From Archangium violaceum (lineage in GTDB: Bacteria; Myxococcota; Myxococcia; Myxococcales; Myxococcaceae): 64,000 bases of DNA. The translations under genes and the position numbers were made by a program. Location: assembly GCF_016887565.1 (NCBI RefSeq), contig NZ_CP069396.1:895001-959000 (forward strand). Direction: 5' to 3'. Below the pieces are notes generated by a model. It saw nothing but the letters and a program-made list of their open reading frames with translations. It had not been told where the DNA came from and searched no databases. How positions within the stretch are numbered: the stretch's first letter is position 1; the number at the start of each line of letters is the position of its first letter. Shown here one piece after another: positions 24,583 to 28,270 of the stretch.

Positions 24583-25185
24583 CTATTCGGACCAGACGAG
24601 CGCCAGCTCGAGGTCGATGGCCTCGAAGGGTTCGGCGCGGACGGTCTCCTCTCCGGCGAAGGCATGGACGAGGAGCCACTGGCCCTCCATGAGCCGGAAG
24701 ATGTCGAGCGTGCGCGCGAGCGGGTCCACGTGCCATACGTGCCGCACGCCTTCGCGGGCGTAGATGCGCATCTTCTGGCCCTTGTCCCTGCTGCGTGTGC
24801 GTTCGGAGAGGACCTCGCAGACCCAGTCCGGGGCGAGGTCGTAATGGGCCGGGGCCTCGTCCCCTCCGACGGCGCGAGGCAGGCGCTCGCGCCTCCACCC
24901 GGCGAGGTCCGGCACGAGCTTGTCGGGCCGGGGGCCGAGGTGGAGCTCCGGCATGTGGAGGATGACCCATCCGCCCGGTCCTCCCCTGCCGAGTGCGAAG
25001 GGCGCTCCGATGAGTGGAAGCAGGTTCGATGTCACGTTGACATGTGGGCGGGCCGGATGAGGACTGACGTGCAACTCACCGTCGAGGATCTCCGCCACCT
25101 TCTCCGGCGGAACCGCCTGGAAGGCTGCCTCGACGGACGCGGCGTTTCGCTCGGTCCCATTCTCAGGAGCGCGACGGGAGGCCAT
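24583..25185 (-). CDS. Uma2 family (DUF820) nuclease-like protein
   Basis: The product has 200 residues. ATG 25185 is preferred, although ATG 25203 adds six codons; neither has a good ribosome site. Uma2 marks: EKVAEILDGELHVSP, the acidic VPDLAGWRRERLP, EVLSERTRSRDKGQKM and YAREGVRHVWHVDPL. These give the D...E-x-L...K restriction-endonuclease-like active site. Uma2 genes are widespread in single copies; a biological role is not settled. It converges directly with the kinase gene and lies beyond the terminator of the peptide operon. Confidence 0.85.
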   Translation of the reverse strand: MASRRAPENGTERNAASVEAAFQAVPPEKVAEILDGELHVSPHPARPHVNVTSNLLPLIGAPFALGRGGPGGWVILHMPELHLGPRPDKLVPDLAGWRRERLPRAVGGDEAPAHYDLAPDWVCEVLSERTRSRDKGQKMRIYAREGVRHVWHVDPLARTLDIFRLMEGQWLLVHAFAGEETVRAEPFEAIDLELALVWSE

Positions 25186-25247
25186 GAGGGAGGATTTCAG
25201 CATCCCCCTGGCGCTGTGCAATCCCGAGGCCCGGGGATCGTCACCGA

Positions 25248-25313
25248 GGGCAGACCCGCGAATGTTCACGTCGGGTCTGCCCAGGGAGGGAGGCCACCCT
25301 CAACAGGCCTCCC
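25248..25313 (-). terminator. double hairpin after the peptide gene
   Basis: Two palindromes sit back to back downstream of the small peptide gene. One is an 8-bp GGGAGGCC/GGCCTCCC stem (25288-25295 and 25306-25313). The other is an 11-bp GGGCAGACCCG/CGGGTCTGCCC stem (25248-25258 and 25272-25282). There is no long T-run, but in this GC-rich genome two strong stems between an operon end and the next gene are a plausible terminator. Confidence 0.6.
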
Positions 25314-25322
25314 ATCACCCGA

Positions 25323-25499
25323 CTACTCGCACATGGTCTGGCCGACGCACTCGCAGCAGTAACCGATCAGCGCGAGAGGCTGACCCGCCGCGAGGGTCAC
25401 CGTCATCTCCAGGCGAGATTCCAGCTCGGTCAGCTGGAACTCATCCATCGTCTCATCGGCAGCGACCTGCATCTCTTGTCCGGGCTTCAGTGCGTCCAT
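25323..25499 (-). CDS. 58-residue Cys-rich peptide, candidate RiPP precursor
   Basis: ATG 25499 follows a near-ideal GGAGGA site at seven bases, so translation is well supported. The first 35 residues are acidic and leader-like, with ETMDEFQLTELESRLEMTV predicted as a helix. The C-terminal third is hydrophobic then Cys-rich (LALIGYCCECVGQTMCE: four Cys in twelve residues). This split of acidic helical leader and small Cys-containing core is typical of ribosomally made, modified peptides. The two upstream genes in the operon, a membrane metalloprotease and an acyltransferase-like protein, are suited to leader removal and modification. No known precursor family is recognised; the mature product is unknown. 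Confidence 0.65.
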   Translation of the reverse strand: MDALKPGQEMQVAADETMDEFQLTELESRLEMTVTLAAGQPLALIGYCCECVGQTMCE

Positions 25500-25557
25500 G
25501 GTGTTTCCTCCGGTTGTGCTACGTGCAACGACAAACAGGAATGGGTGCTGGCGTGGG

Positions 25558-26733
25558 TCAGCCAGCACGAGGCTCAGCCGTTTCGGCGCGCGTCAGCGCG
25601 CCCACGTCGATCAGTTTGCGAATCCGCGCATTCGACAGATCCAGTGCGTCTCGTGCGGAGGGGCGCTCGACCGCCGTGCGGAACACGTCGGCTGACGCGG
25701 GGTCGAGCATGATGCAGCTGTGGCGTGCCTTGTCGAGCAGGACCGGCTGGTCGCCGTACAGCAGCAGCGCGAACCGGTCGGTATCGGCGCGCAGCTCCGC
25801 GGCGCTCTCCTCGCTGGTCCGCGCGGCGGGACGCACGTCGGTGCTTCGCTGGAGATAGCGCTCGACGTAGAGCCAGCCTTCCCACTGCCCCGGAGCATCG
25901 GCGACCGACTGTTCCAGCAGGCTGTACAGCGCCTGCGTCGTGTCCGCGGCGTATTGCTCACGATCGTCCCCGGTCGGGACGATCGGCGGATGAAAGGTCA
26001 GCGACAGCGCATGAGTGGCGTCGCGCCGGCACACCACGGGCACCACGGGAACGCGCGCGAGGTGGCTCAGATAGGCGATTCCAGCACGCGCCATGATGTG
26101 CTGACCGAAGAACCGCACGGGCACCATGCTGCCGCTTTCCTTGTTGCTGCCGACTCCCGCGTTGCCGTCGATATAGATGACGAGCGATGCGCCGCGCTTG
26201 AGGGCTCGCAGGCCGAACAGGACGCTGTTGCGGTCCTGCGCGTTGACGGTGCGGAGCGTGCCCGTCCAGCCCCGTGCCCGCGCGGCGTCCTGCGCGACAT
26301 CGAGGATGTCCTGCCCCTGCTTGTTCAGCGTATTGCCGGCCAGGAACAGCACGCACTCGGTTCCGGCGCGCAGCAGGAAGTGGAACAGGTGCCGGTAGGA
26401 ACCGGTGTGATAGGTGCAGAAGATGTGACCGCCCGTCTGTCGTCCGCCCGAGACGATGCCGGCCAGGTCATCCAGGCGCGTCGTCTCCACCAGGTCGTAT
26501 TGCTTCTGGTCGAGCACGGCCATGTTCTGCAGGAACAACACCTCCGCGATGACCTCGTCCCGGCGCTCGCGCGACAGGTGCGGAAAGAAATAGCGCAGGT
26601 TGGCGTCGCACAGGTGGTAGGCGTTGTTGAACGCATCGTGCCGTCGGGGCGCGGCGACGACACCGCCCAGCGCGCGGCGCAGCGCCGCGTCGATCTCGTT
26701 CGCCTTGCGGACGTATCGTTCATCCAGGCTCAT
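25558..26733 (-). CDS. LpxL-like acyltransferase fold protein with C-terminal PqqD-like domain
   Basis: A 391-residue protein whose ATG overlaps the protease stop (ATGA). Residues 100-250 resemble the lysophospholipid/lipid A acyltransferase fold: HIFCTYHTGSYRHLF, IYIDGN with NKESGSMVPVRFFG, and YLSHLARVPVVPVVCRR. The usual catalytic H-x4-D/E reads H109-TGSY-R114 here, so the acid is absent and activity is in doubt. Residues 315-385 (LLLYGDQPVLLDKARHSC to IRKLIDVGALT) look like a PqqD-type peptide-binding domain. It would suit recognition of the 58-residue peptide encoded 58 bases downstream. Peptide acylation or a scaffold role are both inferences. Confidence 0.7.
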   Translation of the reverse strand: MSLDERYVRKANEIDAALRRALGGVVAAPRRHDAFNNAYHLCDANLRYFFPHLSRERRDEVIAEVLFLQNMAVLDQKQYDLVETTRLDDLAGIVSGGRQTGGHIFCTYHTGSYRHLFHFLLRAGTECVLFLAGNTLNKQGQDILDVAQDAARARGWTGTLRTVNAQDRNSVLFGLRALKRGASLVIYIDGNAGVGSNKESGSMVPVRFFGQHIMARAGIAYLSHLARVPVVPVVCRRDATHALSLTFHPPIVPTGDDREQYAADTTQALYSLLEQSVADAPGQWEGWLYVERYLQRSTDVRPAARTSEESAAELRADTDRFALLLYGDQPVLLDKARHSCIMLDPASADVFRTAVERPSARDALDLSNARIRKLIDVGALTRAETAEPRAG

Positions 26734-28076
26734 GCGGCACCTCCCTGCGCGTTGGTGGCGGAACGCCGGGGTGGGGTGGCGAGCGCGAGCCGCACGAGCC
26801 CCACTCCCCGTCCCAGCGTGGACAGGACCATCAGCGCCGAGAAGAGCGCGCCGACCAGGTACGCCAGCACCATCGCCGCGCTACCCGATACGGCGACGAG
26901 CGCCTCGAGCGGCCGTGTACTCGCGAACCTGGCCTCGACCGCGCCCAGCAGCGTCGGCAACGACGTCACGAGGAGCCAGGTGGTACGCGCGGCGAGCAGC
27001 GCGAAGAGGGTGAAGAAGAGGGTCGACGCCAGCGCATAGACGCGCAGCGCCATCGGGGCGCCCGCCAGGGGCGACGGCACCACGTCCCGACGTCCCGTCA
27101 GGACGCGGGCCACGCGGGTCAGCACGTGCGCGCTCCAGGCGCGCGCCTGGTCGCGCAGGTTGGGCAGGCGGAACAGGTCGGAGTAGACCCAGTAGCCATC
27201 GAACCGGAAGAACGGGTTGAGCGTCACGCAGAGCGTGGTCACGCTGGCGCCGATGAAGGCGGCAATCACGGCGCTGTGGGTTGCCAGTTGTACGGGCACG
27301 GCCAGCGCCGTGACGATCAACTGGAAGTAGACACCGCCGAGGTTGACGCGCATCCGGCTGGCGCGCGGCAGCCGCCACGACTCGGTGACGTTGCAGAACA
27401 GCACCGGAAAAACCAGATACAGGCCGATTCCGATCTCGGCGGGGTCGGCGCCGGAATAACGCGACGCCGCCGCGTGCCCGAGCTCATGGAACGCGAACGC
27501 GCCGAACAGCAGGGCGTAGAACAGCAGGGCGTCGCCCAGCGTCATGTCGAGAGCGGCGCCGGTCGCGCTCCAGCCGCCGACCTGGGTGAGCGTGGCCAGC
27601 ATCCACCCGCCCAGCAGGCCGCCGCACGCCAGCAGCGTCACGGCCAGCATGCGCGGTGCGAACAGGAAGGTGAACGGGGAACAGGCGCGCGTGACCATGG
27701 CGGGGTCGGCCAGCCGCCTCGCGAAGAACAGGTAGGGGGAGCGTCCGCTGGCCGCTGGCCCGGCCTGCTTGTCTGTCGATACCAACCCCGCTGGCAGCAA
27801 TTGGGTTTGGATCACCGAGCGGATCTGCTCGACGCTGACCCTCGTGCCACCTTCATTCATGCGCTCGACGACCGCATCCAGCGACGACTCGCGTGCCAGG
27901 CACTCGAGCAGCCGCGCCAGACGTTCGGATCCATGAAAGGCGCGGCGCCCGATGAAGATGCAATAGCGCCGGTCAACCTGGGGATCGTCTGTCTGGGACA
28001 GCGAGAGTTCGTCTGTCAGGTAGTAGCGCTCCAAAGTGGCCCTTGGGTGCGGCGGAGTGTCTCCGCTGACGTGCAT
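26730..28076 (-). CDS. M50-type membrane zinc metalloprotease with N-terminal PqqD-like domain
   Basis: A 448-residue protein as read from ATG 28076. Residues 15-100 (YYLTDELSLSQ, ERLARLLECLA, SVEQIRSVIQTQLLPAGLV) look like a PqqD/RiPP-recognition winged helix. Then come about eight membrane helices. H197-E198-x-x-H201 (FHELGHAA) and D293 in NPFFRFDGYW supply the zinc ligands of M50/site-2-like proteases. This is the putative peptide zinc metalloprotease type seen in peptide export or modification clusters. The promoter lies so close that TTG 28034, with AAGGG upstream, may be the true start. It is the first gene of a three-gene operon. Confidence 0.78.
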   Translation of the reverse strand: MHVSGDTPPHPRATLERYYLTDELSLSQTDDPQVDRRYCIFIGRRAFHGSERLARLLECLARESSLDAVVERMNEGGTRVSVEQIRSVIQTQLLPAGLVSTDKQAGPAASGRSPYLFFARRLADPAMVTRACSPFTFLFAPRMLAVTLLACGGLLGGWMLATLTQVGGWSATGAALDMTLGDALLFYALLFGAFAFHELGHAAASRYSGADPAEIGIGLYLVFPVLFCNVTESWRLPRASRMRVNLGGVYFQLIVTALAVPVQLATHSAVIAAFIGASVTTLCVTLNPFFRFDGYWVYSDLFRLPNLRDQARAWSAHVLTRVARVLTGRRDVVPSPLAGAPMALRVYALASTLFFTLFALLAARTTWLLVTSLPTLLGAVEARFASTRPLEALVAVSGSAAMVLAYLVGALFSALMVLSTLGRGVGLVRLALATPPRRSATNAQGGAA

Positions 28077-28079
28077 TCA

Positions 28080-28108
28080 ATAGTAGCGAAAGTGTAAAAT
28101 TATGGCAA
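28080..28108 (-). promoter_or_regulatory. sigma-70-type promoter of the peptide operon
   Basis: TTGCCA (28103-28108) and TACTAT (28080-28085) are separated by exactly 17 bases in an AT-rich island that stands out from the surrounding GC-rich DNA. The -10 box ends four bases before ATG 28076. Transcription would then begin at or inside that codon, which favours the TTG at 28034 as the real start or a leaderless mRNA. Confidence 0.6.
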
Positions 28109-28270
28109 ACCTGGATTCGCCGTGATGACGGGTACTACCTGAGGGGTTGGCGCGCGGGCGCCGACGCGTCGCACAGGCTGGGTACCCGAGACACTCGTGC
28201 TCCGCTGGAGGGGAATCGACCGGCCGAGAAGGCGTGCGCGCTCCGTCTCCAGGAGCTATAGGTCCACGAT

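Follow-up and report, generated by a model that had tools for sequence, protein, structure and literature searches.

Three linked genes of the soil bacterium Archangium violaceum raise the question of what they make together. They lie on the minus strand of a 64,000-nt window (the whole stretch of DNA analysed, positions 895,001-959,000 of the forward strand of NZ_CP069396.1, assembly GCF_016887565.1) and form an operon in the order M50 protease, LpxL-like acyltransferase, 58-aa peptide. An earlier note on this DNA had proposed that they constitute a pathway similar to those for ribosomally synthesized and post-translationally modified peptides (RiPPs), with a protease and an acyltransferase that both bear a PqqD-like RiPP recognition element (RRE). 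As judged from sequence, the operon encodes a short precursor with a conserved leader and a separate core, together with enzymes whose RREs could in principle bind that leader. We consider it very probable that the operon is a RiPP pathway. With less assurance, we think it probable that the acyltransferase, which has the lysophospholipid acyltransferase (LPLAT) fold, acylates the core and that the M50 protease removes the leader.

This proposal is supported by the recurrence of the trio and the conservation of the leader, both of which had been set as tests beforehand. Scanning genome contigs with an M50 alignment yielded 80 loci, and we compared loci with short M50 genes (n = 59) with control loci where the M50 protein has at least 600 aa and is mostly of the HlyD-fused kind (n = 26). 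Short open reading frames (ORFs) beside M50 genes have in common a leader box, ELExRLE(M/L/T), which reads ELESRLEM in the window. ORFs of this type were found within 4 kb and on the M50 strand at 37 of the 59 short-M50 loci, never on the opposite strand, and at none of the 26 controls. The filter used here undercounts: even the window peptide, whose frame overlaps a spurious long ORF, escaped it. At about two dozen loci a short M50 gene had an LpxL-like gene no more than about 8 kb away, and none of the long M50 genes did (0/26). These loci span Myxococcota, Proteobacteria, and Bacteroidota and include ones from Oxalobacteraceae, Myxococcus, Luteibacter, Fulvimonas, Dokdonella, Erythrobacter, Sphingomonas, Rheinheimera, Hymenobacter, Pedobacter, Chryseobacterium, and Segatella. 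In the six genomes of the source genus, the M50 gene was present only in the window operon.

The 58-residue peptide had been described as an acidic leader followed by a CCEC...C core. Its reading frame is preceded by GGAGG, and a homologue, MNQDQRFLMDEFQLNELEERLEMTAVGSDVAASYICCECLLQPYCIPRDGA, from an Oxalobacteraceae metagenome-assembled genome (MAG; locus L030) resembles it in both leader and core (CCEC..Q..C). L030 is the closest relative of the window operon, and conservation of the core thus reaches another phylum. A sister species (genome G005) has a relic of this precursor, frameshifted and orphaned (L126:9223-9364), on a different contig from the operon site and with neither an M50 nor an LpxL-like neighbor. 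The leader of this relic is as in the window, and reading a different frame gives the core YCCECVGQTYC. By analogy with daptides we infer a cleavage point after RLEM, giving a predicted window core that ends in Glu.

The protein encoded by the first gene has the features of M50 site-2 proteases: an HExxH motif, a second motif of the NPxxR.DG type, and membrane helices in the AlphaFold2 model (pLDDT 82). Alignment with 24-27 homologues showed 20 invariant columns, including HExxH and NPF.R.DGYW. The best Foldseek match was SpoIVFB (8vjm, prob 1.00, E 0.037); the score against PF02163 was just 17.7 bits. On the basis of sequence and model, this protein is an RRE-fused, site-2-protease-type intramembrane protease and is predicted to cleave.

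The second protein passes PF03279 (46.9 bits against a gathering threshold of 22.3, E 2.8e-12). Its AlphaFold2 model (pLDDT 82.5) matched LpxM (5knk, E 5.5e-12) and PatA (5f2z, TMt 0.76), the fold matches including palmitate-bound PatA, in keeping with the description as LpxL-like. The residue aligned to R114 of the window protein is the catalytic E127 in LpxM. All 20 cluster-associated LpxL-like proteins keep the catalytic His, and their position 114 is Arg in 15, Lys in two, Tyr in two, and Leu in one; the three housekeeping LpxL-type proteins compared read H.GNWE and so keep the Glu. A DGN motif is specific to the cluster-associated group, every member of which also has Asp or Glu within residues 197-202. 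In the tree, one 100/100 branch splits these proteins from housekeeping LpxL, and those of the window and L030 are nearest to the type found in Bacteroidota arginase clusters. His126 and the block-3 Glu200 are essential in PatA, and its D131A variant, altered in HX4D, retains 37% activity (PMC4792965). Because the window protein keeps the His and the block-3 acids, and because PatA tolerates loss of the HX4D acid to this extent, acyl transfer is plausible.

Pfam scans of the isolated RRE regions gave no match for the window proteins and matched PqqD in just 2 of 15 and 3 of 18 members. We therefore used profile-profile comparison (hhalign) against myxobacterial PqqD proteins, with reversed and shuffled controls. 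The C-terminus of the LpxL-like protein matched PqqD over 71 columns (probability 82%, E 1e-5; controls at most 0.11%), as did the M50 N-terminus (62%, E 7.7e-5; controls at most 0.14%) and the N-terminus of arginases in related clusters (71%, E 3.6e-5; controls at most 0.14%), although probabilities of 62-82% are only moderate. The M50 N-terminal domain also had weak Foldseek similarity to TbiB1 (5v1u) and PqqD (5sxy), with TMt 0.56-0.59, and hmmsearch weakly matched the LpxL-like C-terminal region to TbiB1 (E 0.27). No such C-terminal domain is present in the housekeeping LpxL proteins compared. Since profile, predicted fold, and context agree, these data support a PqqD-type RRE in each window enzyme, as the earlier note had suggested, and leader binding is predicted for both. 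Gene structure, folds, RRE homology, the conserved leader, and the conserved trio are all supported by the computation.

In daptides, an RRE-dependent intramembrane peptidase removes a leader with the box ELExMEAP, and mutating key residues of this ELE-type box abolishes processing by an RRE enzyme (PMC10036551). The window operon resembles daptide clusters in having an M50 intramembrane peptidase with a fused RRE and an ELE box directly before the core (ELExRLEM rather than ELExMEAP). It differs in that its protease scores 105 bits (E 4.5e-30) against NF041824, the NCBIfam model of the DapP-type daptide protease, where the cut-off is 300, and in having ELESRLEM and a C-terminal Glu in place of ELExMEAP and an invariant C-terminal Thr. 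The oxidative decarboxylase (MpaB/C), aminotransferase, and methyltransferase of daptides were not among the operon genes or the neighbors scanned, and an LPLAT-RRE enzyme is present instead. Epipeptides (YydFGHIJ/LiaK) likewise have a small peptide adjoining an M50 protease, but the window operon has no YydG-type radical S-adenosylmethionine (SAM) epimerase and its protease reaches 37 bits against NF058609 (YydH/LiaK; cut-off 225). The selidamides, which are acylated on ornithine side chains, the lipolanthines, the goadvionins, and the nostolysamides are lipidated by GCN5-related N-acetyltransferases (GNATs; PMC13060382). These share with our proposal a gene-encoded peptide that is acylated; there, however, a GNAT fold acts on lanthipeptides, whereas the window enzyme has the LPLAT fold and a lanthionine synthetase is lacking. 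From LpxL, LpxM, and PatA, whose fold, catalytic His, and block-3 acid it shares, the window acyltransferase differs in the lost HX4(D/E), the DGN motif, the C-terminal RRE, and the peptide-cluster context. It matched no described RiPP enzyme family in NCBIfam, Pfam, or the open-access literature, subscription literature being mostly outside our search. The earlier statement that the operon fits no RiPP class thus holds for membership, since by the sequence features tested it is not a daptide, epipeptide, or GNAT-lipidated RiPP, but daptides have the M50-RRE leader-protease logic and the ELE-type leader as well (PMC10036551). By analogy, the operon would handle its leader as daptides do and, should acylation be borne out, would give a selidamide-like product by means of another enzyme fold.

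We favor acylation of the core peptide by the following route. The acidic leader of the 58-aa peptide would end in the box EFQLTELESRLEM, which the RREs of both enzymes would bind, by analogy with daptides. The LPLAT-fold protein would then acylate a side chain of TVTLAAGQPLALIGYCCECVGQTMCE, most likely with a fatty acyl group from acyl carrier protein or coenzyme A. No other modifying enzyme was recognized beside the M50 gene at the window, Oxalobacteraceae MAG, Rheinheimera, and L074 loci, which makes the LPLAT-RRE protein the probable modifier of the core. We consider Cys the likeliest acceptor, since Lys and Arg are absent from the predicted core and a leader-guided enzyme would act while the leader is still attached to the core N-terminus; Thr and Tyr are possible. 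Cleavage by the protease at or just after RLEM would then release the product at the membrane. What we infer for this route is the chemistry, with its acyl donor and acceptor residue, the step order, export, and the biological role.

In related clusters of larger size there are also radical SAM/SPASM enzymes, PF00491 arginases fused to an RRE, a JmjC/cupin protein, or a C39-ABC exporter. LanM, radical SAM, YcaO, and ABC exporter genes were noted earlier to be missing; this is true of the window operon, but many relatives have a radical SAM/SPASM enzyme, RRE-fused arginases, or a C39-ABC exporter. An Arg-Cys core was present at 14 of the 15 loci with an arginase and at 3 of the 28 without (Fisher 1.2e-7, a value that overstates the strength of the association because the loci are phylogenetically non-independent). 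This tracking indicates that cluster enzymes act on the core. In these clusters core Arg would first be converted to Orn, giving an amine acceptor; the window operon has no arginase. The predicted conversion of Arg to Orn on a precursor peptide is like that by the peptide arginase OspR (pfam12640; PMC10028609), but the relatives' arginases are PF00491 proteins, a different family, with an N-terminal RRE. Clusters with RCNGRC cores (L023:7125-12869, L080, L067, L072, L056, L071, L050/L058) occur in Myxococcus, Sphingomonas, Luteibacter, and relatives. They bring together genes for a radical SAM/SPASM enzyme, LPLAT-RRE, and M50 with several for PF00491 arginases, some of which have an N-terminal RRE; L023 and L067 have the JmjC/cupin protein. 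A link between LpxL and core Cys was considered but proved uninformative, since Cys is present in all predicted cores of the M50-associated loci. Arginases acting in trans for the minimal clusters were also rejected; the matches have shorter frames (297-328 aa) that cover only the catalytic part of the query. For a radical SAM enzyme in trans, the source genome gave one weak TIGR04463 match, below the cut-off.

Several points weigh against acylation of the core. No product has been seen so far, no exporter was recognized beside the window operon, and L030 is the only close homologue of the window type that was found, with no other in 399 genomes of its order. We found no LPLAT-fold acyl transfer to a peptide in the open-access literature searched, and loss of the HX4(D/E) acid in 20/20 cluster-associated proteins points to an altered active site. 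This loss, the group-specific DGN motif, and the Cys in every predicted core would also be consistent with an LPLAT-fold enzyme of changed chemistry whose acyl transfer on the peptide is of a non-lipid kind, for example the formation of a thioester or lactone, or an acyl shift by which the Cys-rich core is cyclized. We regard this as unlikely because the catalytic His and block-3 acids are kept, the fold closely matches acyl-binding enzymes, and the HX4D acid is non-essential in PatA (PMC4792965).

It is quite improbable that the LpxL-like protein instead acts on a membrane lipid (lipid A or similar) for self-protection, leaving the peptide to be cleaved only by M50. Membership in PF03279 and the natural role of LpxL would suit such a function, but the protein has its own RRE, lies across the 100/100 branch from housekeeping LpxL, and tracks M50-precursor clusters. 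Myxobacteria employ many signals, and the similarity of the protease to YydH/LiaK would fit a peptide that is a secreted signal (a pheromone or epipeptide-like) freed by site-2-type proteolysis, with acylation lacking or incidental. We give this equally little credence, since the YydH/LiaK match is far under the NCBIfam cut-off, no YydG-type radical SAM enzyme is encoded, and the conserved LPLAT-RRE partner would be left unexplained.

The peptide-lipidating RiPP enzymes described in the open-access literature searched are GNATs. We suggest tentatively, and at somewhat less than an even chance, that these clusters form a new RiPP class, which would span at least three phyla and be defined by an RRE-fused LPLAT that acylates or cyclizes a Cys-containing core, with the RRE-fused PF00491 arginases of larger clusters as a second new peptide-modifying family. 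An LPLAT-fold enzyme that a leader-binding domain recruits to peptides would add a new tool for biosynthesis, and the window operon, which comprises a single peptide, a single candidate modifier, and a single protease, offers a very compact test system. Both the leader box and the LPLAT-RRE sequence could be used to search for many clusters in Bacteroidota and Proteobacteria that are so far unannotated.

The three genes, the promoter, and the terminal double hairpin of the earlier note were all present where it had placed them (Table 1). The region contained two promoter-like sites, where 0.4 would be expected from shuffles, and the hairpin has no T-run. The start of the LpxL-like gene, which has a GGAGG Shine-Dalgarno sequence, overlaps the M50 stop (ATGA). 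The M50 protein probably starts at the TTG rather than the ATG, because the promoter would put the transcript start at about the ATG, an AAGG box sits 6 nt upstream of the TTG, and the Oxalobacteraceae homologue starts at exactly that residue (MKQYFLSG vs LERYYLTD).

Table 1. Features of the operon in window coordinates
Feature	Position	Strand	Details
Promoter-like site TTGCCA-N17-TACTAT	28108..28080	-	9/12 consensus matches
M50 gene, ATG-started frame	28076..26730	-	448 aa
M50 gene, likelier TTG start	28034..26730	-	434 aa
N-terminal PqqD-like RRE of M50, about residues 24-98	27783..28007	-	hhalign and weak Foldseek
Zinc-site motif HELGH, residues 197-201	27474..27488	-	H197, E198, H201 invariant
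Second catalytic motif NPFFRFDG, residues 287-294	27195..27218	-	P288, F289, D293, G294 invariant
LpxL-like gene	26733..25558	-	391 aa
Block-1 motif HTGSYR (H109...R114)	26392..26409	-	catalytic His retained; Arg in place of the HX4(D/E) acid
Block-3 DGN motif (D189-N191)	26161..26169	-	D189 20/20, GN 17/20
C-terminal PqqD-like RRE of LpxL-like protein, about residues 312-376	25606..25800	-	hhalign
Precursor peptide gene	25499..25323	-	58 aa; GGAGG 7 nt upstream
Leader recognition box EFQLTELESRLEM	25404..25442	-	same-strand motif ORFs near short M50 genes
Predicted core TVTLAAGQPLALIGYCCECVGQTMCE	25326..25403	-	CCEC..Q..C common to L030 and G005 relic
Double hairpin, probable operon end	about 25319..25248	-	-52 kcal/mol, z = -3.9
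Segment absent from sister genome G005	25247..28221		not at corresponding site (L118)

At the corresponding site in G005, the flanks are 88-90% identical and enclose type I restriction-modification-like genes (identified by reading the sequence), indicating that the operon site is a variable spot. A Uma2-family gene (window 24583-25269) starts inside the hairpin region, and DNA similar to it is present at many other sites in the same and related genomes.

Among the related clusters, the M50/LPLAT-RRE clusters of Rheinheimera and a gammaproteobacterial MAG (L069, L076, L074) have very Gly-rich cores (LCGGSGGGGG, CCGGGGGGGG), and a Pedobacter cluster (L049:8600-9878) has six consecutive precursor genes for identical peptides. 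A tblastn search of plasmids with two cluster LpxL-like proteins gave no match. The plasmid M50 matches whose surroundings were read comprised a radical SAM/M50/leader cluster in Muribaculaceae, two Streptomyces loci with no LpxL-like gene in their surroundings, and a Hymenobacter locus (L027:4938-7265). In the latter, the M50 gene is accompanied by a short ORF with FQVEALDQRLET and an isoprenyl-synthase-like neighbor with a DDxxD-like motif, possibly another M50-linked peptide pathway.

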